This document shows, in pieces, positions 580 to 12,733 of a stretch of 64,000 bases of DNA (positions within the stretch are counted from its first letter, which is position 1; every line of letters begins with the position of its first letter). Both the position numbers and the translations under genes were made by a program. This stretch comes from Sphingopyxis sp. JAI128. Lineage in GTDB: Bacteria; Pseudomonadota; Alphaproteobacteria; Sphingomonadales; Sphingomonadaceae. A model generated the notes under the pieces. The model searched no databases, had not been told where the DNA came from, and saw only the letters and a program-made list of their open reading frames with translations. Location: positions 186,001 through 250,000 of the forward strand of contig NZ_JACHDA010000004.1 in assembly GCF_014207235.1 (NCBI RefSeq). Reading direction: 5' to 3'.

Positions 580-3500
580 TCAGTTCGCGTAAAGCAGCGG
601 CGGCCGCCACGCGCTTTCGTCAACCGCATCGCGGACCTTGTAGACCATCCCCTTGCTGTTCAGGAACAGCTTCTCCATTTCGGGCCGCGTGAACGGGCGC
701 GAGCCGAGGCGGCCGAACACCGCCATCTGGCCGCCCGTCTCGTCGACCGCGCGGTCGCGGTCGAGTCCCTTCGACAGCGCGAGCGCGGGCGACGGCGTCT
801 TGGCCCAGGCGATCAGTTCGGGTGTCGGCTTGGGCGAGAAGCCGTAGAGCCCCGGATTGTCGGGGCTGGTCAGCTGGAGCACCTTGATGCCATTCCGCCC
901 GTCGGCGACATAGCCGAACAGCGACGCGTTGGTCGACGCGACGATGACGTCCTCGGCATCGTTGAGCGCGCCGCCAAAGGTCAGCCCCGGCCAGGCGACC
1001 GGCGCGGCGGGGTGCGTGACATCGACGATGACCAGCCCGTCCTGCTTCGCCGCGACATACATATAGGTTCGCGCAAGGTAGATTTTACGCGCGTTGGCCA
1101 AGCGTACCGTGCCCTGCGGCACCGCAACCGGCTGTGCGAGATTGGTGACGTCGAACAGTTTTACGCCCTCGGCATCGGTGACCCACAGATAGCGGAATTG
1201 CAGCGCACTCGCGCGGGCGTCGGCCAGCGGCAGCTGCGCCGTGACCTTGGGCGCAAGCGGCGCCGTCAGGTCGAGCACGACGAGCCCGGCGTCGGTCGTG
1301 ATATAGGCCATGCTGCCGGCGAGCGTGATATGGCGCGCGCCGGCAAGAACATTGCCTTCGTTCCACGTCAGCGCGCGTTTCAGCTGGTTGTTGCGGAACT
1401 CGCCGTCGGCCATCGTGTCGATATCGACGAGGATCAGTCCTTCGACGCTGTCGGTGATGACGGCGTAGCGATAGATATCGTGCATCACCTGTTCGTGGTT
1501 CTCGGGGAAATTTTTCACGATATTCTCGTTGCGCGACACGCTGATCGGCTGCGTCGTCGCGATCGCCATGCAGGTTGCATTCTTCGTCTTCACATGCGTG
1601 TCGTGACCGAGCGGCGAGAAGGGCGCGCGAACGATGCGTTCGGAAAAGCCCTTGTTGCCGATCGAGGCGACGTCATAGACGCGGAAGCCGCCCTTGCCTT
1701 CGGCGACGAACATATATTCGCCGCGCTGCTGCAGGCAGTTTACCCGCCCGCCCGTGCCCTGGACGATGTTGGCGAATTCCTCGAGCGCATGGGTTTCGCC
1801 CGAGAGCTTCTTGTCGAAGGTCTTGCCGCGCACCCAGTCTTTGAGCTCGCGGCCATTCTGGTCGACGTGCAGCTTCCAATAGTCGGGATAGGCATATTTC
1901 TGGAGGTAACTGCCGATCACCGCCTGCGGCTCGTCCCATTCGGTGACGCGCGTGGCCTGAAAGCTGTTTTCCTGTCCCGACCAGACGTTCAGGCCGACGA
2001 AATTGACGAAGTTGGTGCCGAGCAGGTTCAGCTGCGCCATGATCGCATTATTGTCGTCGTTCGCCGACAAATGGCAGTCGCTGCACTGCTTGGTTTCAGA
2101 CCGGCGGACAGTGTGCGGGAAATGCGGCGCAAAGGCCTGGCTGGAATAGCCCGCCGAGCTGATCGGCGGTTGCTGCACATAGATGCGCTCGCGGTTGATA
2201 TTGGTCGACGACAGCACCAGCGCCGAGGTCGACCGCACCGGGGTGATGATGCCGCGTACCTCGCCGTCAGGACCCGGCTCGCCGGGCTTGGTGAGCTGGT
2301 GGCGGCCGAGCTGGAACATTTCGTCGCGCGCCACCTGCGGGTTATAGGTCGCGAAGTTCCGCGTCTCCTCTCCCTCGAAATGGTGCATCTTGGTTTTCCA
2401 GTTGGCCTCGATGGGCAAATGGCAACCGCCGCAACTGGTGGTCCAGCTGAGGTGGCAGGTGAAGCAGGTCATCTTGTCGTCGCCGTGCGCGCGATCTTCC
2501 TTCGCGACGCCCGGTCCCCATTCGAACTTGCCGTCCTCGCTGCCCGCGCGCGCCATCAGCTTCGCACGCGCTGCTTTGGCATTGAAATGCGGTCCTGGAG
2601 TCACCGCCTGCTTGACCAGGCTGACCTGCCATTCGAGCTTGGGGTCGACGATCGACCGCTGGATCAGGCCGATCACCTCGGCATCGTCATTATATTGGAA
2701 TTCGAAGCGGCGGCGCCCATCTGGATTGCGCAGCAGCGCCAGATTATTGCCCTGCGGCCGCGCGGCGACGTTCGAGGTGAGCAGGTTCGGCAGCGCATCG
2801 GCGGTGCCATGGCAATCCTTGCAACCGATTTCGACCGCGTTCGCGACCTCGCCCTGGATATAGCCGTTGCCGTGGCTGTCCTGCGCGAAATGGCAGTCGG
2901 CGCATTGCATCCCCTTTTCGGCGTGGATGTCCATCATATGGACCGCCTTGCCGGGATTCAGGCCCGGCGGCACGAACTTGCCCTCGACTCCCGGTCGTTC
3001 GGGATCGGCGCTGGCGAGGCAGAGTTCGCGCTGTTTTTCGTCGCTGTAGCTGGCGCAACTCTTGCGCCATTTTTCCGGGTCCTTCGGGTCGACGATATTC
3101 GCCGTGTCGGTGCCATAGGTCGACATATTGCCGTCGGCGTTGAGCAGGTTGCCGTTCCGGTCGCGTTTGAAGATGCCGCGGAAATTCCAGCCATGGCCGT
3201 GATAGTCGGCGAACTGCGTATCCTTGTTGCTGTCGTTGACGTCGTAGACGTCGCGCAGGAATTCGACGTCGGCCCACAGCCCGCGGGCGGCCGCTGCTTC
3301 CGGGTTGCGTTCGAGCACCTGATGCACTTCGGCGGCGGTCGGATAGCGCTGCTGCTTGTATTTCTTCCGATATTCCTCGTCGCTCATCCCCGGCGGGCGC
3401 GGCGCCGTATTATCCGGTCCCGGCCACATCTGCGGCGCGTCCGATTCATAATCCCACATCGTGTAGCCGAGGTAGGAGTTCAGGAAGATGTTCGGCTGGT

Positions 3501-4872
3501 GCATGTGGCAGGACATGCACTGCGAGGTCGGGATCGCGCGCGTGAAGGTGTGGCTGATCGGGTGGCCCGATTCGCCGCGCGCCGGGGCCCCGGGGCGTGC
3601 CGGAACGTCCGGATCGGCGGGGTCGATCAGCGCGCCATGACCGCCACCGGCTTGATGGCCGTCGTCGGCGCCGTGTCCGTCCTTGCCATATCCGCCTTCG
3701 GGCTTCCATTTTTTCTCCGATATCGTCGGATCGACCGTCGCCGTTTCGCCGTCGCGGCCAAACTTCGCATAGGTCAGGCTGTGCCGCGGTTCGCGGTCGT
3801 TGGCGTAGACGACGTGGCAGCCCGAACAGCCCGAATGGCGATAGTCGCCCGGCTGGTCGTTCGTCCCCATGAACCACGACAGCGGGTCGTTGAGGCGTGT
3901 CTTGTGGATGTTGAGCACGGGGATCGAGACGCGCAGGCCCGTGCCGGGACCGCGGTTCGATTGCTTGAGGTCGGGACGTCCCGGCTCTTCGAGCCGCTGG
4001 ATACTGCCCGTCGGGTTCGGCAGGCCGATTTCGGGAAATTGCGTGTTGATGTTGCGCCCGCCGCGCTCGAACACACGGAACACGTCGCCCGGCGGCAGCA
4101 CGCTCCAGCGCGGCAGCGGGTACATTTTGGCGAGCGCGCCGCGCTTCTTTTCCTCGTCGGTCAATATCTTGTCGAAACCGAAGCTCGGCTTGCAGGCTTC
4201 CTTATACTCCTCGGCGGTCAGCCGCGAGGAGGGGGACAGGATGCACGCGGGCTCGCCGGTGCGCGTGTAAGCCTCGCCGAAAATATAATTCTTATAGGGG
4301 ACGATGCCATTGTTATACGCCGCGCCCCCCCACAGCATCGCGCCGGTCGACATCATCGACCGTTCGGTCGCCTCGATCACCTCGAGGTGGCACGCGCCGC
4401 ACGCCTCGCGCGCGACGCGATAGTCGCTCGGGTTCACGAAGCGGATGAATTCGGGCGATTCCTTGTTGAGCAAAGTATAGCTGCGCTCGGGGTTCGCCGA
4501 GCTGTCGTGCCACGCGCCGGGCAGCGTCGGCTGCGGGTGCGCGAGCTTCATCGCCGCCTTGTTCGTCGGATGCCGGTAGCCGAGGCTGGGTGTCCCGCGC
4601 TGGCTGGCGTCGCCGCCATGACAGTCGGTACAGCCGAGCTTCACCGCGGGGGTCGCGTGCATCGAGGGCTGGTCGGTGCGCGTGTGACAGCTGTAGCAGC
4701 CTTCCGACTTCGCGCTCACCTCGGCGTCGCTCTGCTCGCGCGGTGCGGGCGGGGTGAAGCGATATTCGATCTTGAGCGGCTTCTCCTCCTCCGCGGCGCG
4801 GCCGACGCTCGCGCCGAAGGCGGCGCACATCGTCACGAAAGCGAGCAGAACGAAGAGTTTGCGCAGCAGCAT
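580..4872 (-). CDS. Decaheme cytochrome fused to LVIVD beta-propeller
   Basis: A 1430-residue exported protein. A signal peptide (about residues 1-26, ending VGRAA) precedes ten CXXCH heme sites starting near residues 59, 81, 158, 349, 452, 657, 684, 803, 814 and 930. After residue about 1050 the sequence changes to repeats of the kind GLVVLDLTAP and GLVIVDVTHP, the LVIVD pattern of a beta-propeller, to near residue 1360. Cytochrome c family knowledge implies periplasmic heme attachment and electron transfer; the propeller suggests docking or surface exposure, which is inference. It is the last gene of the operon, and its ATG follows the stop of the beta-barrel gene with no gap. Ten hemes recalls PioA/MtrA-type conduits, but those are far smaller and lack a propeller. 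Confidence 0.8.
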   Translation of the reverse strand: MLLRKLFVLLAFVTMCAAFGASVGRAAEEEKPLKIEYRFTPPAPREQSDAEVSAKSEGCYSCHTRTDQPSMHATPAVKLGCTDCHGGDASQRGTPSLGYRHPTNKAAMKLAHPQPTLPGAWHDSSANPERSYTLLNKESPEFIRFVNPSDYRVAREACGACHLEVIEATERSMMSTGAMLWGGAAYNNGIVPYKNYIFGEAYTRTGEPACILSPSSRLTAEEYKEACKPSFGFDKILTDEEKKRGALAKMYPLPRWSVLPPGDVFRVFERGGRNINTQFPEIGLPNPTGSIQRLEEPGRPDLKQSNRGPGTGLRVSIPVLNIHKTRLNDPLSWFMGTNDQPGDYRHSGCSGCHVVYANDREPRHSLTYAKFGRDGETATVDPTISEKKWKPEGGYGKDGHGADDGHQAGGGHGALIDPADPDVPARPGAPARGESGHPISHTFTRAIPTSQCMSCHMHQPNIFLNSYLGYTMWDYESDAPQMWPGPDNTAPRPPGMSDEEYRKKYKQQRYPTAAEVHQVLERNPEAAAARGLWADVEFLRDVYDVNDSNKDTQFADYHGHGWNFRGIFKRDRNGNLLNADGNMSTYGTDTANIVDPKDPEKWRKSCASYSDEKQRELCLASADPERPGVEGKFVPPGLNPGKAVHMMDIHAEKGMQCADCHFAQDSHGNGYIQGEVANAVEIGCKDCHGTADALPNLLTSNVAARPQGNNLALLRNPDGRRRFEFQYNDDAEVIGLIQRSIVDPKLEWQVSLVKQAVTPGPHFNAKAARAKLMARAGSEDGKFEWGPGVAKEDRAHGDDKMTCFTCHLSWTTSCGGCHLPIEANWKTKMHHFEGEETRNFATYNPQVARDEMFQLGRHQLTKPGEPGPDGEVRGIITPVRSTSALVLSSTNINRERIYVQQPPISSAGYSSQAFAPHFPHTVRRSETKQCSDCHLSANDDNNAIMAQLNLLGTNFVNFVGLNVWSGQENSFQATRVTEWDEPQAVIGSYLQKYAYPDYWKLHVDQNGRELKDWVRGKTFDKKLSGETHALEEFANIVQGTGGRVNCLQQRGEYMFVAEGKGGFRVYDVASIGNKGFSERIVRAPFSPLGHDTHVKTKNATCMAIATTQPISVSRNENIVKNFPENHEQVMHDIYRYAVITDSVEGLILVDIDTMADGEFRNNQLKRALTWNEGNVLAGARHITLAGSMAYITTDAGLVVLDLTAPLAPKVTAQLPLADARASALQFRYLWVTDAEGVKLFDVTNLAQPVAVPQGTVRLANARKIYLARTYMYVAAKQDGLVIVDVTHPAAPVAWPGLTFGGALNDAEDVIVASTNASLFGYVADGRNGIKVLQLTSPDNPGLYGFSPKPTPELIAWAKTPSPALALSKGLDRDRAVDETGGQMAVFGRLGSRPFTRPEMEKLFLNSKGMVYKVRDAVDESAWRPPLLYAN

Positions 4873-6804
4873 CTAGAAACTCAAAATCACATTGGCGAGG
4901 ATGGAGACATAGGCGTCATTCTTTTTCTTGTTGTCGAACAGATCCTTGAACCCCTTGCCGGGCAGCAACACCGCGGCGCTGAGACGGCCGACGATGTTCT
5001 GCGTCGCTTTCGGGCGCCAGATCGTCGCGAGCGACAGGTCGAAGCCGATATCCTTGGGAATTGAACCTTCGCTGCGCAGCACCTGCAGGCTCGACGTATT
5101 TTCGAACCAGAGATGATTGAGATTGGTGCTGACGCGAAATTCGGGGGTCAGGTCGAAATCGGCGCCCGCGCCGATGAAGACGGTGCCGGGATTGTTGAAG
5201 TTCGACTGTCCCTCCTCCTTCGACGAGCGCAGCGAGTTCAAAATGCCGTTGCGGCCGTTGATCGCAATCGCGCGCCCACCGCCCGCGAAGGGAATCGTCT
5301 GGCGAATCCAGTAGCTGGTGTCGGCGCCCCCGAAGATCGGGTTTTCGAAGATCGCGTCGAACCCGCCCTCGGTGTTGTTATAGGGATCGCCGTCGCCGGT
5401 CGCGTAGAGCCCCGACAGGCGGAAGCGCATCCAGTCCTGGTCGTAGCTGAGTTCGATCGCGCCGAAACCCGCACGGATTTCGGCGGGTTTGCTCGTGAAA
5501 AAGCTGTTCCGGTCTTCGCCGAGCGCGGCATAGAAGCTCGCCGTGAGGTTGATCCGTCCGATACGTCCGTCGGCGCTGTAGCCGAGGTAGACGACGTCAT
5601 ATTCGCGCCCGCGCAGGTCGCCGAGCAGCGCGGGGCGCACCGGGAAACCATTATGGTCGATCTGCACGTCGTTCTTTTCGCGGTTCATATTGTAAGTGAC
5701 GCTGACCTGACTGGTCAGCCCGACGACCGGGAAATCCTGGCGATAGAGGTTGCCGGTGAAGATGAAGTCGCTGCGCGGCGTCTGGGTAATGTCGTTGAGG
5801 CCGCTGTTGGTATCCTTTTCGAGCCGCCAGAAGGCCGCGAGATTATATTGGAAGCGGTTGTTGTCGCGGTTGCCGAAGAGGCGGATGCCGAGCTGGCTGT
5901 CGTTGAACAGGAAACCGCGGAAGTCGCTCTGGAACGGCTGGATGCCGAGGCGGATCGAGTAGAAATCATAGCGATCCGACGTGTTTCCGAGATGCCTGTC
6001 GACGAACAGTTCCTGCACGCCGAGAAAGCTGTCGTAGCGATGGCTCGCTTTCGACGGGCGCACGTCGAGCACGCGCCGTTCGGGCACGTCGACATAATTG
6101 GCCTGCCAGGCGAGCGTGACGCGATATTCGATATCGGGCGGCTTGAATGCCGTTGATCCCTTGATCAGCGCCGCGCCGGCGATGAAGGTCTGCGCAAAGA
6201 CGAAGCTGCGGTCCTTGCCGAACACGTCGAGGCTGCCCGGCCGCTCGGTCGTCTGGACGCCGACGGGGATCGGGAAGGTGCGCGGTTCGAACACGGTGTC
6301 GGACACCGCATTGGCGACGAAGAACCAGTCGTCGCCCTTGATCGGCAGCCATTTGACCTTGCTGCGGTCGATCGCGCGGTCGCCCTTGTACGTATTCTGG
6401 TGATAGGGGTCGAACCAGCGTTCCTTGACCACGCCCAAAGTCTCGATCAGGCGCCAGCGGTCGGGAACCGGCAGCTGGTCCTCCATGCCCGGAAAGGCCT
6501 GCGGCGGCGGCGGGCGCAGCGCGCCGACATTCTCCTGCGTCAGCGCGTCGGGAAGGTCGGGGCGATAGCCGGGCCGGCGGCGACCCTCGATAATCTGGGT
6601 GACCAGGTCGTCCTTGACCATGTCCTGCCAATCGACCGGCGGCGGCGGCGGTATCAATTCTTCGCCCGGCTGTTCGGACGGCGCCGCGTCGCCCGCGACC
6701 GGCGGCCCTTCGGGCGCGGGGGGCGGCGGCAATGCTTCGGCCCCGGGCGCGCCCTGCGCCGCGAGTGTCGCGATGACCGGCCAAAGGCTGCCCCCCGTCA
6801 TCAT
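4873..6804 (-). CDS. Outer-membrane beta-barrel protein of cytochrome operon
   Basis: A 643-residue protein with a short hydrophobic N-terminus, then about 75 residues rich in proline (PPPPAPEG, IPPPPPVDW). The remainder is alternating aromatic/polar strand sequence with many Asp/Asn turns and ends VILSF, the terminal phenylalanine typical of BAM-inserted outer-membrane barrels. I cannot assign a named family. It lies between a lipoprotein and a decaheme cytochrome, with a gap of 3 bases upstream and 0 downstream, so the products are probably made together. The natural guess is a barrel that sheathes or anchors the cytochrome, as MtrB/PioB do; it could also be a substrate-specific porin. Two ATGs (6804, 6801) are possible starts. 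Confidence 0.65.
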   Translation of the reverse strand: MMTGGSLWPVIATLAAQGAPGAEALPPPPAPEGPPVAGDAAPSEQPGEELIPPPPPVDWQDMVKDDLVTQIIEGRRRPGYRPDLPDALTQENVGALRPPPPQAFPGMEDQLPVPDRWRLIETLGVVKERWFDPYHQNTYKGDRAIDRSKVKWLPIKGDDWFFVANAVSDTVFEPRTFPIPVGVQTTERPGSLDVFGKDRSFVFAQTFIAGAALIKGSTAFKPPDIEYRVTLAWQANYVDVPERRVLDVRPSKASHRYDSFLGVQELFVDRHLGNTSDRYDFYSIRLGIQPFQSDFRGFLFNDSQLGIRLFGNRDNNRFQYNLAAFWRLEKDTNSGLNDITQTPRSDFIFTGNLYRQDFPVVGLTSQVSVTYNMNREKNDVQIDHNGFPVRPALLGDLRGREYDVVYLGYSADGRIGRINLTASFYAALGEDRNSFFTSKPAEIRAGFGAIELSYDQDWMRFRLSGLYATGDGDPYNNTEGGFDAIFENPIFGGADTSYWIRQTIPFAGGGRAIAINGRNGILNSLRSSKEEGQSNFNNPGTVFIGAGADFDLTPEFRVSTNLNHLWFENTSSLQVLRSEGSIPKDIGFDLSLATIWRPKATQNIVGRLSAAVLLPGKGFKDLFDNKKKNDAYVSILANVILSF

Positions 6805-6807
6805 CGC

Positions 6808-8775
6808 CTAAAGCCCGTCGCAGACATTTTGCTGCGCCGTATCGAGGAACGGAGCGAAGGGGCAGCTGATATAACGCAGGCGCACCCCGTCGCCGACGTT
6901 GACGACGATGGTGTCGGCGCGGATATTTTTCGGCGCGTTGCCGATACCGACGCGCGTCCCGGCATTATGGGTGCCCAGAAAGCTGATCATATCGTCCTGG
7001 TCGATACCGTCGCCCGACACGCCGATCGCGCCCACCAGCTGGTTGCCGCGATAGATGGGGACCGATCCGGGAAAGATCTGGATGCCGTTCTGCAACCGGT
7101 TCTGCCCCGGCGCGACGTCGGGCAAGGTCGTGCAGCGCGCCGGCGTGTCGGTGGGGCTGGCGCCCGAGACGAAACCCAGATGCGCGCCCAGATTGCCGAT
7201 GATGAGGGCCGATTGCAGCCCGGTCGAGAAGGGATTGAACTGTTCGATCGGGCGCGACAGCGGGCCGTGCGGGCGGCCGACTTCGCCATCGGGGAAATAG
7301 GGGCGCGACAGGTTGCCGCCCGACCGGTCGGCGAAGGCGATCGTGCCCGTCAGCGCGGCGGGATCGTTCAGGAAGGTCCGCAGGGCGGGCACGAACTGGC
7401 GGACGTCGGCGCTTGCATTGGCGCCGAGTTGGTTTCCCGCCTGGGCGCCCGAGAAGAAGGCGGCCGTGCGCGCTTTCTGCAAGCTGACGTCGGTGCCGAA
7501 GATCGGGGCGTCGGGCGATCGCACGATGCCGAGCACCGCGCCGTGCGTGTCTACGATGCTGATCGTCACCTGGGCGCGGCTGTCGAGCGGGCGGCGGATC
7601 TGCGCGCGCGCGCGGCTCATCACCGTGAACGCCTCTTCGAGCACCGCGCGCGCTTCGGCTTGCGTCAGCGGCGCGCTGTTGGTCGCGCTGTCGGTTCCGG
7701 CCCGGATCGGATAGCGGTTCGTCCCACTGCCATTGGTCAGGACAAAGGCGTCGCGGTTCGAAAATTCGGCCGGCGTCGAGGCGCGAATGCCCGATGCTTC
7801 GGTGCCATAGGCAATCCCCGCCGTCACCGCGGCATTGGCGTAGCCGATCACCGCGACGAGGTTGCCGGCGCTGCCGTTGAGGCTCGCAAAGCTGGCGCCG
7901 CCGCTCGACATCACCCCGGCGAAGGTCGCGTCCGAAAAGCGCAGGCTCGTTCCGTCGACGGTGATCTTGTCGGCGGTGATCGTGCCCGGTGCCTCGAACC
8001 CGCGCGTGCCCGCGAGCGCGATGAACTCCTCGGCGTCATTGTCGATGTCGAGGATGTTGGGATCGCTGCCGTAGACGCCGTCGCCCATTACGCCGATGCC
8101 GCCGACAAGCACGCCATTTTTATAGAGTGGCAATCCGCCGGGGTCGGCGGCGAGGCCGAGCGGCGAGCGTTTGGGCCCGATCAGCGCCGCCGCGCCGGGC
8201 GCGCCGAAGCGCGCCGACAGGTCGCTGCACGGCAGCTGGCTGAACTGCACGCCGAACAGGGGCCCGCTTTCGAGCCCGACGGTGGTCGGCGCCGGCGGGA
8301 AATGTTCCTGGACGATCTGGCTTGCGGTCCGGGTCGAAAAGGCGTTGCCGCCGCTCGAGAGATACGCGCCGGTCACCGCTTTCGCGATCGCGCCGCCCTC
8401 GGCCGGGAAGGTGACATTCTGCGCGTCGATGTTCACGCCGTTCGGTGCGGGCGAGGTCGTCGCGGTCGCGCGCGCGCCGTTCATGCGGAACACGCCGAGC
8501 ACATTGCCGACGCGGTCGGTCACCGCGATCACCGACGGCAGGCCGCGCGCCTGCGCCTCCGATATCGCTTGCGCGAGCACGCGCTCCACGTCGGCCGTGG
8601 TGAGCGCTTCGGCGGCGGGCGGGGCGTAAACCGTCGTCGGCGCAGGTGTCGGGGTCGGTGTGGGCGTCGGGGTCGGCGTACCGCCGCCGCCTCCGCCGCC
8701 GCCGCACGAGGTCAGCAGCAGCGCCCCTATCGCGGCGAAGGCGGCCGAACGGAAGAGGTGGGTCTTGCTTTGCAT
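6808..8775 (-). CDS. Lipoprotein with tandem GlcG/HbpS heme-binding domains
   Basis: A 655-residue lipoprotein. The lipobox is LLTSC with Cys24; Gly at +2 predicts outer-membrane sorting. The Cys is followed by eight glycines and seven Thr-Pro repeats, a flexible stalk. Two GlcG/HbpS-like units follow. The first starts near residue 55 (VIAVTDRVGNVLGVFR) and closes with VGGIGVMGDG; the second starts near 370 (ISIVDTHGAVLGIVR) and closes with VGAIGVSGDG. HbpS-type proteins bind heme and sense redox or iron state in other bacteria. Placed between two multiheme cytochromes, it could handle heme or act as a redox partner; this is inference. Its start is 5 bases after the upstream cytochrome stop. 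Confidence 0.8.
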   Translation of the reverse strand: MQSKTHLFRSAAFAAIGALLLTSCGGGGGGGGTPTPTPTPTPTPAPTTVYAPPAAEALTTADVERVLAQAISEAQARGLPSVIAVTDRVGNVLGVFRMNGARATATTSPAPNGVNIDAQNVTFPAEGGAIAKAVTGAYLSSGGNAFSTRTASQIVQEHFPPAPTTVGLESGPLFGVQFSQLPCSDLSARFGAPGAAALIGPKRSPLGLAADPGGLPLYKNGVLVGGIGVMGDGVYGSDPNILDIDNDAEEFIALAGTRGFEAPGTITADKITVDGTSLRFSDATFAGVMSSGGASFASLNGSAGNLVAVIGYANAAVTAGIAYGTEASGIRASTPAEFSNRDAFVLTNGSGTNRYPIRAGTDSATNSAPLTQAEARAVLEEAFTVMSRARAQIRRPLDSRAQVTISIVDTHGAVLGIVRSPDAPIFGTDVSLQKARTAAFFSGAQAGNQLGANASADVRQFVPALRTFLNDPAALTGTIAFADRSGGNLSRPYFPDGEVGRPHGPLSRPIEQFNPFSTGLQSALIIGNLGAHLGFVSGASPTDTPARCTTLPDVAPGQNRLQNGIQIFPGSVPIYRGNQLVGAIGVSGDGIDQDDMISFLGTHNAGTRVGIGNAPKNIRADTIVVNVGDGVRLRYISCPFAPFLDTAQQNVCDGL

Positions 8776-8780
8776 GATCT

Positions 8781-10244
8781 CTACCGCAGCGCCCCGATCG
8801 CGCGGACCGCGCTGTCGAATGACGCCTGGAATTCCGAGGGCTTGTATGCGTTGGGGTCCTTTACCGCCGCATAGGCGCGGTCGATATCGCCGCGGATACC
8901 GGCGGCGGCGCCGACGGTGATGCGCCCCGACGACACCATGGCGTCGAGCAAGGTATCGACCCCCATCACCGCCTGCTGCGATCCCGAATAGTCGGTGTAG
9001 CGATCGCTGGTCGCCTTTGCCGAAATCGCGTCGACCATTTGAAAGGCGTCGGCGCCCGAGAAGCTCCGCGACGCGAACGCGCCTTTGAGCGCCGCGACCG
9101 TCTGCGACAGCTGCGCCGCGGCGGCGACCGCGCTCTGGCGGTCGGTCGCCATCGCCTTGTGGAAGGCGGCGGTGCGCGCCGCGAGCTGGTCGGCGAGTGC
9201 GGGTGCGGCAAGCCGCGCGGCGGCGGCGAGCATGATCAGATTTTCGTCATTATAGGGGGGCATGCCTTCGGGCAGGTTTCGCCCCGGATTGTCGAGCCCG
9301 GTGCGCACCGGCTTTGCCTGGTCGAAGATGCGGCGGTGGCAGCTGTGGCAGTCGAGGAAATAAAATTCGGGGAACATCCCCTCGGTCCCGCGCCGCGTCT
9401 GGAAGAGCGCAAGGCTGCGCTCGATCGCGGTCGCCTGCCCGACCGCCCACATCTGCACATGGTCGGTGCGCCGGTTCGCGGCGCCGAACTTGCGCCAGCC
9501 ATAATCGGCGTCCTCCCGATGATGCGCCTGGAGCGACGAGAAAAGGTCGAGCTCGAACGAAATGCGCGGATGGCCGGCCGCCATGATCCGGTGGGTGACG
9601 AACTGGCCGTCCGCCGCCGATCCGAAGTGGCAATCGACGCACACGCCCGCGCGGACCACGGGGTCCTCGAGCTTCTTCAGCCCCGCCGACAGGTTGGCGA
9701 GATGCTTGGTCCGCATTTCGCGGTCGGGATCGGCGTTGGTGCCCACCCCGGCATAGTGGCTCGCAAGCCAGCCGCCGGCTGCGCCGTGGCACGATTCGCA
9801 GCCGACGCCATCTTCTGCCGGGACCGCGCGCGCGGTGCCGGCGGTGCTGTGGCAGCCGAGGCACATTTGCGCCTTGGCGGGATCGCCGATGCCGAGATTG
9901 CGCGCGATGAACTGGCTGCGGTTGTTGTTGAGAACGGCCCAAGCGCGGCTGTGCGCGCCGCCGGGGCTCGATGGCTCCTGCCAGCGCATCAGCTCATCCT
10001 GGCGAACGACGACCCCGTCGCCTTCCATCCGGCCGTGGCAGGTCGATCCCGCGCAGGAGGCAACGCCGGTATAGCGCGCGCCGCTTTCGCCTTGCGAGCG
10101 GGCAGGGGGAGCGAAGGCGAACGCCGCAATCGCTAGCGCCAGCAGCATCGCCCCGAGGACGGCGAATGCCGTGCGCGCGGGAACAAGGGCGGCCAACGCC
10201 GCCCGAGGTCGACCGGCGCGCTCCTTTCCAGCGTGCATCGTCAT
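8781..10244 (-). CDS. Membrane-anchored multiheme cytochrome c (five heme motifs)
   Basis: A 487-residue protein with an N-terminal hydrophobic segment at about residues 24-45, either a signal peptide or a single anchor. Heme sites: one unusual CX4CH (residues 64-70, CAGSTCH), then CXXCH at 128 (CLGCH), 149 (CESCH), 202 (CVDCH) and 299 (CHSCH). The spacing resembles cytochrome c-554/NrfA-type multiheme proteins; the C-terminal 150 residues are helical and lack heme sites. It should act in the periplasm, passing electrons between the inner membrane and the downstream operon partners. First gene of the four-gene operon; the gdhA stop is 49 bases upstream on the same strand, so read-through from gdhA is possible. 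Exact function unknown. Confidence 0.75.
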   Translation of the reverse strand: MTMHAGKERAGRPRAALAALVPARTAFAVLGAMLLALAIAAFAFAPPARSQGESGARYTGVASCAGSTCHGRMEGDGVVVRQDELMRWQEPSSPGGAHSRAWAVLNNNRSQFIARNLGIGDPAKAQMCLGCHSTAGTARAVPAEDGVGCESCHGAAGGWLASHYAGVGTNADPDREMRTKHLANLSAGLKKLEDPVVRAGVCVDCHFGSAADGQFVTHRIMAAGHPRISFELDLFSSLQAHHREDADYGWRKFGAANRRTDHVQMWAVGQATAIERSLALFQTRRGTEGMFPEFYFLDCHSCHRRIFDQAKPVRTGLDNPGRNLPEGMPPYNDENLIMLAAAARLAAPALADQLAARTAAFHKAMATDRQSAVAAAAQLSQTVAALKGAFASRSFSGADAFQMVDAISAKATSDRYTDYSGSQQAVMGVDTLLDAMVSSGRITVGAAAGIRGDIDRAYAAVKDPNAYKPSEFQASFDSAVRAIGALR

Positions 10245-11806: not shown

Positions 11807-12733
11807 ATGAGCGAGAGCAAGGGCATGACAGGGACCAACCGCGCGATTCTGGTTGCGGCCTTCATCCTGCTGGCGGCGGCGGTGGGCTATGCAATCTGGC
11901 GCGATTCCGGCCCTGAGGCGTCCGATCCCGCAGTGCAGGCGGCAGCCGCACCGACCGATCAGCTCGCCGAACTGGAGGCGCGCACGCGGCGCGAGCCGAA
12001 CAGCACCGAAGCCTGGACCGCACTCGGCGCCGCCAAATTCGACCTCGGCGATTTTGTCGGTGCCGCCGCCGCATATGACAAAGCGGTTGCCTTGTCGCCC
12101 GAGTCGGCCGGACTATGGTCGGCGCTGGGCGAAGCGCGGGTGATGGGCAGCGACGGCGACCCGATGCCCGCCGCCGCATCGCAAGCGTTCGACAAGGCGA
12201 TCGCGCTCGACGCCAAAGACCCGCGTGCGCGCTATTTCCTTGCGGTGAAGAAAGACATCGGCGGCGATCACAAGGGCGCGATCGACGACTGGTTCGCGCT
12301 GCTCGCCGACACGCCGCAGGGCGCGCCGTGGGAGGCCGACCTGCGCCGCACGATCGAGCAGGTTGGGCAGATCCACAAGATCGACGTTGCCGCCCGGCTA
12401 GCCGCGACGCAGCCGCGACCGCTGACGCCGAATGAAATGCCGGTGGCGGCCCGCGCGATCCCGGGCCCGAGCCGCGCCGACATGGAAGCCGCATCGCAGC
12501 TGCCCAAGGGACAGCAGGATGCGATGATCGAAGGCATGGTGAACGGCCTCGAGGCCAAGCTGAAGGCCGATCCGACCGACGTCGACCGCTGGATCATGCT
12601 GATGCGCAGCCGCATGACGCTTGGCGAGACGGCGAAGGCTGCGCAGGCGCTGAAGGACGGCATTGCCGCCAATCCGGCGGCGGCAGCGCGGCTGAAAGCG
12701 CAGGCGCAATTATTGGGTGTGCCGGGGGCATGA
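11807..12733 (+). CDS. CcmI/NrfG-like TPR cytochrome c biogenesis protein
   Basis: A 308-residue protein with one N-terminal transmembrane helix (residues about 11-28), then a periplasmic region of TPR units (SAEAWTALGAAKFDLGDFVGAAAAYDKAV-type, about residues 60-165) and further helical pairs near 230-300. This is the layout of the C-terminal half of CcmI/CycH or NrfG proteins, which hold apocytochromes for the heme lyase. No other ccm genes are present here. Its proximity to an operon with 15 heme sites is suggestive. AGGGGC precedes the ATG at a good spacing. A generic TPR protein cannot be excluded. Confidence 0.65.
   Translation: MSESKGMTGTNRAILVAAFILLAAAVGYAIWRDSGPEASDPAVQAAAAPTDQLAELEARTRREPNSTEAWTALGAAKFDLGDFVGAAAAYDKAVALSPESAGLWSALGEARVMGSDGDPMPAAASQAFDKAIALDAKDPRARYFLAVKKDIGGDHKGAIDDWFALLADTPQGAPWEADLRRTIEQVGQIHKIDVAARLAATQPRPLTPNEMPVAARAIPGPSRADMEAASQLPKGQQDAMIEGMVNGLEAKLKADPTDVDRWIMLMRSRMTLGETAKAAQALKDGIAANPAAAARLKAQAQLLGVPGA

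Follow-up and report, generated by a model that had tools for sequence, protein, structure and literature searches.

Four genes stand close together on the minus strand of Sphingopyxis sp. JAI128, at positions 10244 to 580 of the 64,000-nucleotide stretch analysed here (the window; contig NZ_JACHDA010000004.1, positions 186,001 to 250,000). In that order they encode a five-heme cytochrome, a lipoprotein, an outer-membrane beta-barrel and a ten-heme cytochrome. The coordinates of their open reading frames (ORFs) leave gaps of 5, 3 and 0 bases, which agrees with the tight spacing reported in a first-pass annotation of the window. That annotation took the run for a possible undescribed electron conduit. 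The genes belong to a real, strongly conserved multiheme system that is built differently from MtrAB, and whose composition is unmatched by any described system found. The parts of the system in the window, including a candidate fifth part, are as follows (E values are for Pfam matches).

8781..10244, minus strand: five-heme cytochrome (four CXXCH motifs and one CX4CH), 487 amino acids, Cytochrome_C554-like (PF13435, 1.4e-9), probably periplasmic
6808..8775, minus strand: lipoprotein with tandem HbpS-like domains, 655 amino acids (PF03928, 2.7e-24, four stretches)
4873..6804, minus strand: outer-membrane beta-barrel, 643 amino acids (predicted model with 18 strands and an AlgE/Occ-like fold)
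580..4872, minus strand: ten-heme cytochrome with a C-terminal LVIVD beta-propeller, 1430 amino acids (LVIVD, 1.5e-10; ten CXXCH motifs)
11807..12733, plus strand: CcmH/CycH-type TPR protein (PF23914, 6.4e-17)

Conservation and spread of the cluster

Relatives of the barrel were collected by a scan of named genome contigs, and the best 80 of 210 were kept. These include Sphingopyxis, Sphingobium, Sphingomonas, Novosphingobium, Erythrobacter and Croceicoccus. The barrel of the window is 98% identical to that of Sphingopyxis sp. H115. At 68 of the 80 loci all four genes lie on one strand and in one order. A script passed 67 of them, and L085, which failed only through an over-extended upstream ORF start, was counted too. 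The remaining 12 loci are incomplete because they are cut at contig ends. The four genes are thus conserved together, and the possibility that relatives would not keep them side by side falls away.

A wider set consists of 20 stretches, two from the window's family and 18 from other families (one of them another class). The barrel and the ten-heme gene are present in 20/20, the HbpS gene in 19/20 (L136 starts inside the barrel gene), and a five-heme gene, whole or partial, in 13/20. The class of genome G626, called the second class below, contributes ten loci taken from nine genomes. An adjacent core of HbpS, barrel and ten-heme genes is found at nine of these ten; at the tenth the sequence begins within the barrel gene. 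For relatives in general, genes were called crudely as ORFs, and their start positions are uncertain.

The ten-heme propeller cytochrome occurs in 42 of 119 genomes of the window's family, or about a third. A sample of the class gives matches in 25 of 289 genomes, 20 of them strong (E ≤ 1.1e-62), with three of those 20 from the window's family. In a sample of the phylum 23 of 398 genomes match; 11 do so strongly (E ≤ 3.3e-262), and the others show weak matches in single heme pairs or in the propeller. In the second class, 12 of 274 genomes hold near-full-length or large partial relatives; 58 have a match of any kind, most of them weak.

Relatives of the barrel are also carried by 13 large plasmid records of Sphingobium and Sphingopyxis (including NZ_CP076395.1 and NZ_CP020539.1), two of which are predicted to be conjugative.

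The two cytochromes

Motif conservation was counted over aligned rows. The rows are loci, some of which share a genome, and those below 80% coverage were dropped (for the ten-heme protein, ORFs shorter than 1150 amino acids). The rows retained were 113 of 119 for the ten-heme protein, 85 of 88 for the five-heme protein and 96 of 101 for HbpS. For three proteins described in the next section they were 50 of 53 (FHA-like cytochrome), 46 of 50 (heme-b protein) and 34 of 46 (flavoprotein).

The motif counts of five and ten given by the first-pass annotation are borne out, and shuffles of the same sequences average at most 0.0155 CXXCH. The mean is 0.0075 for the five-heme protein, against four observed, and 0.0155 for the ten-heme protein, against ten observed. 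Each of the five motifs is kept in 84–85 of 85 aligned five-heme loci, and each of the ten in 112–113 of 113 aligned ten-heme loci. Likewise, all ten second-class proteins (from nine loci and G626) carry ten motifs. Both cytochromes have enough further conserved histidines to act as second ligands, and these residues may complete the ligation of the hemes.

The five-heme protein had been described as membrane-anchored. Its motifs stand, but the anchor is doubtful. The N-termini of homologues resemble cleavable signal peptides (18 N-termini judged by eye, some ORFs being too far extended upstream to be judged). Because of these starts, the protein is probably a soluble periplasmic protein rather than an anchored one.

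The propeller of the ten-heme protein is supported by its LVIVD match and by a predicted model of residues 231–1430. In that model the propeller is confident (about residues 1030–1340, with a predicted local distance difference test score, pLDDT, of up to 95 by block). The heme part is poor, and the mean pLDDT of the whole is 47. The 50 Foldseek matches listed for the model are mostly beta-propellers, none clearly relevant to electron transfer. The MtrA/DmsE-type decaheme model TIGR03508 scores 15.7 bits, below its cut-off of 192.2. The ExtM model NF040943 scores 67.4 bits, best around residues 647–697. The cut-off of this model is 800, and identity with ExtM is rejected on that account.

The heme core has distant relatives with ten to twelve hemes at loci L205–L211. 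The fetched stretches, of which L207 (13.2 kb) and L208 (5.7 kb) are short contigs, hold no barrel, HbpS, FHA-like cytochrome or heme-b gene. The only other profile matches there are that of the five-heme profile to the cytochrome of L208 itself (5e-4) and that of the flavoprotein profile in L212 (1.8e-6). Two of these distant relatives have as neighbour a protein with five motifs, judged NapC-like by eye.

Genes resembling a type II secretion ATPase and a prepilin peptidase lie near the five-heme gene at L140 (1–5638), L129, L137, L139, L141 and L142, as judged by sequence clustering and, for L140 and L141, by Pfam. They might aid export of the large cytochrome.

The inner module

Three more genes recur beside the core in the 20 wider stretches. 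They encode an FHA-like ten-heme cytochrome (17/20), a small membrane protein, called the heme-b protein here (17/20), and a flavoprotein (16/20). In the genome of the window they form a separate cluster, at about 127.5–132.8 kb of contig C6 (locus L168, 7502–12790).

The flavoprotein has a pyridine-nucleotide-oxidoreductase region that is closest to YpdA (125 bits, below the cut-off of 339.9), two cyclic-nucleotide-binding (cNMP) stretches and 4Fe-4S domains. Over 34 rows, 16 cysteines are conserved at 95%, which would give room for four 4Fe-4S clusters. A role as a disulphide reductase appears unlikely, since no cysteines besides these 16 are conserved.

The heme-b protein shows five peaks in an alignment-averaged hydropathy profile, and its helices are predicted by hydropathy alone. 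His107, His121, His131, His275 and His289 are present in 47/47 rows, the query included. Among nine second-class proteins, one of them a divergent paralogue, His107, His121, His275 and His289 are present in all nine and His131 in eight. The pairs 107/121 and 275/289 fall within two of the five peaks. A spacing of 14 residues between paired histidines is typical of diheme cytochromes b, and the two pairs would give room for two hemes b. Known families are approached from below: Ferric_reduct (PF01794) scores 19.2 bits against 28 in the homologue of L147, and Ni_hydr_CYTB (PF01292) 18.2 bits against 30.1 in the protein of the window's genome.

All ten motifs of the FHA-like cytochrome are kept in 50/50 rows. 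A single hydrophobic stretch separates the FHA-like part from the hemes, and the protein is proposed to sit in the inner membrane with its ten hemes in the periplasm. The profile of this family does pick up true FHA proteins (1.8e-16 for L222:4050-5240).

Related modules were seen in two settings. At L229 (1150–7522) a divergent second set stands beside a complete cluster. It comprises a five-heme-like protein, a cNMP/4Fe-4S protein with no Pfam flavin domain, a heme-b-like protein with the four paired histidines and a ten-heme FHA-like cytochrome. Paralogous inner modules with another use thus seem to exist. In three genomes of the sphingomonad family, weak matches to the FHA-like cytochrome and the heme-b protein lie side by side (G705:C2, about 180484–181391; G669:C5, about 74733–75646; G756:C2, about 157679–158592), which suggests another related module.

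Linkage of the two halves

Co-occurrence across the window's family was counted for two inner genes, those of the FHA-like cytochrome and the heme-b protein, over the 119 genomes. Strong matches to the FHA-like cytochrome (E ≤ 1.5e-68) are found in 41 of the 42 genomes that have the ten-heme propeller cytochrome and in 0 of the 77 that lack it. Strong matches to the heme-b protein (E ≤ 1.5e-78) fall in the same 41 of 42, and again in 0 of 77. The Fisher p for this co-occurrence is 2.9e-31, uncorrected for kinship. Weak matches were counted as absent, namely those to the FHA-like cytochrome in G669, G701 and G730 (E 3.8e-5 to 5.5e-4) and to the heme-b protein in G669 (1.4e-4). The single exception, G674, has the ten-heme gene and neither inner gene; its genome is 67% complete.

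The distance between the two modules varies. They lie within 10 kb of each other in 21 of the 41 genomes, further apart on one contig in 13, and on different contigs in seven, including the genome of the window. In the second class they are joined. The genes of the FHA-like cytochrome and the membrane protein precede the core in eight of ten loci, L222 and L230 being cut, and the flavoprotein gene is adjacent in five (L222, L230 and L231 cut). Several second-class genomes, including G626 (L145), have the collinear order flavoprotein, heme-b protein, FHA-like cytochrome, HbpS, barrel, ten-heme, five-heme. Such a run of genes is the strongest reason to join the halves that stand unlinked in Sphingopyxis, and the inner and outer genes very probably form one functional system. 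The conduit first suggested for the window was accordingly right in part. It named a plausible electron-transfer set that is indeed conserved, but a picture of barrel and decaheme cytochrome as the whole leaves out the inner half.

The TPR gene follows the same pattern. Of the 42 family genomes that carry the ten-heme cytochrome, 41 have a strong match (E ≤ 2.8e-35), as do three of the 77 others; when weaker TPR-type matches are included, 110 of 119 genomes have one. The protein is probably a helper in heme attachment and cytochrome maturation for this system, which would make it a fifth part encoded in the window.

The proposed electron path

The composition of the system, the conservation of its motifs and ligands, its co-occurrence and its operon structure in relatives were all computed. 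A path for electrons can be drawn through these parts. Its order is proposed because of the predicted locations of the proteins, and its cofactors are predicted from conserved ligands. The process would start with NAD(P)H, from which electrons would pass to flavin adenine dinucleotide and then to the 4Fe-4S clusters of the cytosolic flavoprotein. The clusters would reduce two hemes b, which would carry the electrons across the inner membrane. From there they would reach the ten hemes of the FHA-like protein and then the soluble five-heme carrier. This carrier would in turn meet the ten-heme propeller cytochrome, which the barrel and the lipoprotein would keep at the outer membrane. The final acceptor, at or outside the outer membrane, may be Fe(III), a quinone or humic substance, oxygen or a small molecule. 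Alternatively, the barrel may let the acceptor in to the cytochrome, as has been proposed in reverse for Fe(II) and Cyc2.

In general form, that of a chain spanning the envelope and moving electrons outward, with an acceptor located at the outer membrane or beyond it, this path is judged somewhat probable. A fuller version can be put forward tentatively, as a possibility short of an even chance. It would be a two-membrane conduit bypassing the quinone pool, in which a cyclic-nucleotide-gated NAD(P)H flavo-iron-sulfur protein feeds two hemes b and 25 hemes c up to the surface, with the FHA-like part as a phosphorylation-dependent switch. Cofactor binding, protein contacts in this order, the NAD(P)H donor, the independence from quinones, the passage of the outer membrane and the outward direction are all inferred, in the general form as in the fuller one.

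The best-known outer-membrane electron conduits take their electrons from the quinone pool and have been studied mostly in metal-respiring specialists. The present module brings an outer-membrane set together with signalling domains and a flavoprotein of the pyridine-nucleotide type. If electrons are exported, this would point to extracellular electron transfer in bacteria that are seldom regarded as electroactive, and its control layer would be open to tests in ordinary laboratory strains. If the quinone-bypass reading is true, it would be a signal-controlled outlet for reducing power in common heterotrophic sphingomonads and in members of at least one other class.

Electrons might also run inward. 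An outside donor such as Fe(II) or Mn(II) would then feed the outer module, and at the far end a cytosolic carrier, NAD(P)+ or some other, would be reduced. In principle a multiheme chain can run either way, and the parallel with PioAB drawn by the first-pass annotation, extended to MtoAB, also favours this reading. However, a cytosolic end of the pyridine-nucleotide type would need uphill transfer, and no coupling site is seen. Moreover, the named hosts are mostly sphingomonads, which are known as heterotrophs. Inward transfer is therefore quite improbable.

The outer-membrane barrel

By sequence the barrel stands apart. The 643-residue protein contains no cysteine and matches no Pfam family at E ≤ 1, and five homologous barrels have no match to Alginate_exp (PF13372) at E ≤ 10, a range in which HMMER filters drop most matches above about 0.1. 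Sequence searches of the PDB with the alignments of the barrel and the cytochrome return nothing at E ≤ 1 and E ≤ 0.01. A model built from an alignment of 39 sequences has 18 strands over residues 160–641 and a porin-like fold, in keeping with the earlier call of a beta-barrel, at a mean pLDDT of 57. Foldseek places AlgE at E 4.8e-12, and AlgE and the OprD/Occ porins score alike. Comparison of this low-confidence model with AlgE/Occ by VIA gives Z 20.4 over 364 residues, with a root-mean-square deviation of 4.1 Å and 14% identity.

Homology with MtrB is rejected. No MtrB_PioB (PF11854) match exists in the whole genome of the window, and a profile of the barrel against 12 MtrB proteins gives a profile-profile probability of 0.3. 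MtrB is not among the 50 fold matches listed for the model, a listing that does not exclude it. The parallel with MtrAB and PioAB that had been drawn for this locus is weak on these profile and structure comparisons. AlgE was likewise rejected as the family of the barrel, given the missing PF13372 match and an hhalign probability of 1.9 against eight AlgE-type proteins, some of them below the cut-off of that family. The MtrB set compared with the AlgE-type set gives 0.4, so these two are also unmatched. Membership of a characterised family of substrate porins, which would speak against a conduit, is half borne out: the sequence families stay below cut-off, whereas the low-confidence fold is AlgE/Occ-like.

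The system may instead be a periplasmic reductase with its own porin. In this model the barrel admits a small organic or metal-complex acceptor, the ten-heme cytochrome reduces it in the periplasm, and no electrons cross the outer membrane. An 18-strand fold like that of AlgE/Occ together with the lack of MtrB homology would suit it, as would the large and sparsely hemed cytochrome. Two homologous barrels also match an NCBIfam model of Desulfovibrio-type porins, weakly (18.3 and 23 bits, cut-off 250), and most distant HbpS proteins have no lipobox (15 of 17 rows). However, the barrel model is of low confidence. A near-invariant stretch of about 50 residues inside the barrel (around 486–540, poorly modelled) would be unusual for a general porin, and the lipobox is retained in the window's family. 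On balance a periplasmic reductase is rather unlikely. Even so, it would be a widespread 27-heme system for which no name or substrate was found.

Several findings weigh against the outward path. An 18-strand pore resembling substrate channels may be too narrow for a heme wire, and the model that suggests those strands is itself poor. An MtrAB-like wire through the barrel is unproven and perhaps unlikely, because no MtrB homology was found and the low-confidence fold is AlgE/Occ-like. The ten-heme protein is large and not compact like an MtrA-type wire, its motifs being scattered from residue 59 to residue 934, and its outer-surface position is proposed with no surface signal shown. The FHA domain stays under its Pfam cut-off (18.3 bits against 20.7 in L147; other FHA-type models are below cut-off in the protein of the window's genome), and the 480-residue homologue of L224 seems by eye to be without the FHA-like part. 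No flavoprotein gene adjoins either copy of the cluster in G865 (L227, L228). Finally, when upstream regions were scanned for FNR, CRP, Fur and sigma-54 consensus sequences, no site common to the loci emerged, and so no physiological cue.

The HbpS-like lipoprotein

The lipoprotein carries a lipobox, LTSC, at residues 21–24 (by eye), and its N-terminal half aligns to its own C-terminal half at E 3.9e-10. Tandem HbpS domains and lipobox therefore agree with the first description of a heme-binding-type lipoprotein. The heme-binding label comes from the family name: one of six histidines is conserved at 95% or more, against four cysteines. Of 80 rows from the window's family and its near relatives, 72 show a loose lipobox pattern, as do two of the 17 rows of the distant set. 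Since it is missing in the other 15, the protein there may be soluble.

An HbpS-type protein brings to mind reductive uptake of iron or heme. In this model the lipoprotein binds a heme or iron complex and the chain reduces it for import. The family assignment fits, as does the weak ferric-reductase-like score of one homologue of the membrane protein (19.2 bits, cut-off 28), and a FecR-domain gene lies near one second-class cluster (L145). Distant Fur-box-like matches, with at most 7 mismatches of 19, are also commoner than in shuffles (13 of 84 five-heme upstream regions against 3.9%, and 16 of 93 HbpS upstream regions against 1.8%). However, the best of these has 5 mismatches, and the HbpS protein keeps a single histidine at the 95% level. 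Those recurring neighbours that were run through Pfam, a part of the whole, include no family of iron or heme uptake. Such a role is highly improbable.

A profile match between HbpS and barrel was rejected as an artefact: the HbpS alignment contains over-long ORFs, one of which (L104) is able to hold both genes. At L104 (1292–5017), on a contig of a metagenome-assembled genome, the HbpS and barrel genes read as a single open frame of 1288 amino acids, which may be a real fusion or a sequence error.

Relation to known systems

The outward path recalls several known systems. With MtrCAB, PioAB and MtoAB it shares a barrel gene adjoining the gene of a ten-heme cytochrome, and a multiheme path through the envelope. 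It differs in lacking detectable MtrB_PioB homology and in having the propeller, the tandem HbpS lipoprotein and an inner module of flavo-iron-sulfur and heme-b proteins. The inner partner in MtrCAB-type systems is a quinol dehydrogenase of the CymA type. The barrel modelled here has 18 strands (mean pLDDT 57), unlike the 26 of the MtrCAB porin given in an excerpt of PMC8406198. The same excerpt describes Cyc2 as one heme fused to a barrel predicted to have 16 strands, with Fe(II) proposed to enter the pore. An 18-strand barrel would sit closer to this case than to MtrCAB, in being small and in the possible entry of substrate. Unlike Cyc2, the barrel here is without cysteine and separate from its ten-heme cytochrome.

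Another partial likeness is with the ext selenite/tellurite operon of Geobacter, through the 67.4-bit ExtM match. The Ext operon is not known to include a propeller, an HbpS protein or the inner module. The heme-b protein resembles the cytochromes b of NOX and ferric reductases, with two histidine pairs 14 apart in two hydrophobic stretches and a cytosolic flavin donor. In contrast to these, its Pfam scores are under cut-off, its YpdA-like flavo-4Fe-4S partner is a protein of its own, and a ten-heme cytochrome is a further partner. The AlgE/Occ (OprD) porins resemble the 18-strand fold of the low-confidence barrel model (Z about 20), but the barrel has 14% identity in the alignment and no Alginate_exp match.

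The system is apparently undescribed, as first suggested. Searches of the PMC literature returned no description of it; papers under other licences and preprints lie outside that collection, so an earlier report is possible. No paper was found there that joins multiheme cytochromes with LVIVD, with FHA and cyclic-nucleotide-binding domains, or with Novosphingobium. Likewise, the excerpts of PMC10654088 and PMC8963506 hold no description of the system, and none of six terms looked up in PMC12133095 occurs there. PMC8258643 reports uncharacterised porin-cytochrome clusters in other genomes, which this negative does not cover. Its excerpt mentions Sphingopyxis in one connection, as one of the genomes that lack acetate activation.

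Signalling neighbours and regulation

It is reasonable to suppose that cyclic nucleotides and phosphorylation control the chain, because the chain itself contains cNMP and FHA-like domains and several of its neighbours are signalling genes. In the genome of the window a gene resembling a cyclic-nucleotide phosphodiesterase lies beside the FHA-like gene (81.8 bits against 225 for the cAMP phosphodiesterase model, 141.4 against 400 for SpdA). Of 53 loci with the FHA-like cytochrome, 35 also contain a homologue, none of them in the distant families. Two second-class clusters have CHASE2-adenylate/guanylate cyclase genes close by, and another is accompanied by a PP2C phosphatase and an FHA protein.

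FNR-like sites with 2 mismatches occur in 12 of 84 five-heme upstream regions (4.1% in shuffles) and in 10 of 93 HbpS upstream regions (3.1%). They stand at differing positions, in loci that are partly related or identical, and there are none with 0 or 1 mismatch. The control consisted of single-base shuffles, which ignore kinship. Because of this, nothing is drawn from the excess of FNR-like or Fur-like matches.

Two further arrangements were seen among the clusters with signalling genes. Genome G865 carries two copies of the cluster, on contigs C12 (L228) and C14 (L227), each beside a CHASE2-like protein (Pfam CHASE2 and cyclase for L227). At L223 (3621–5705), adjoining a second-class cluster, an FHA domain is fused to a transporter of the sulfate permease family with a STAS domain.

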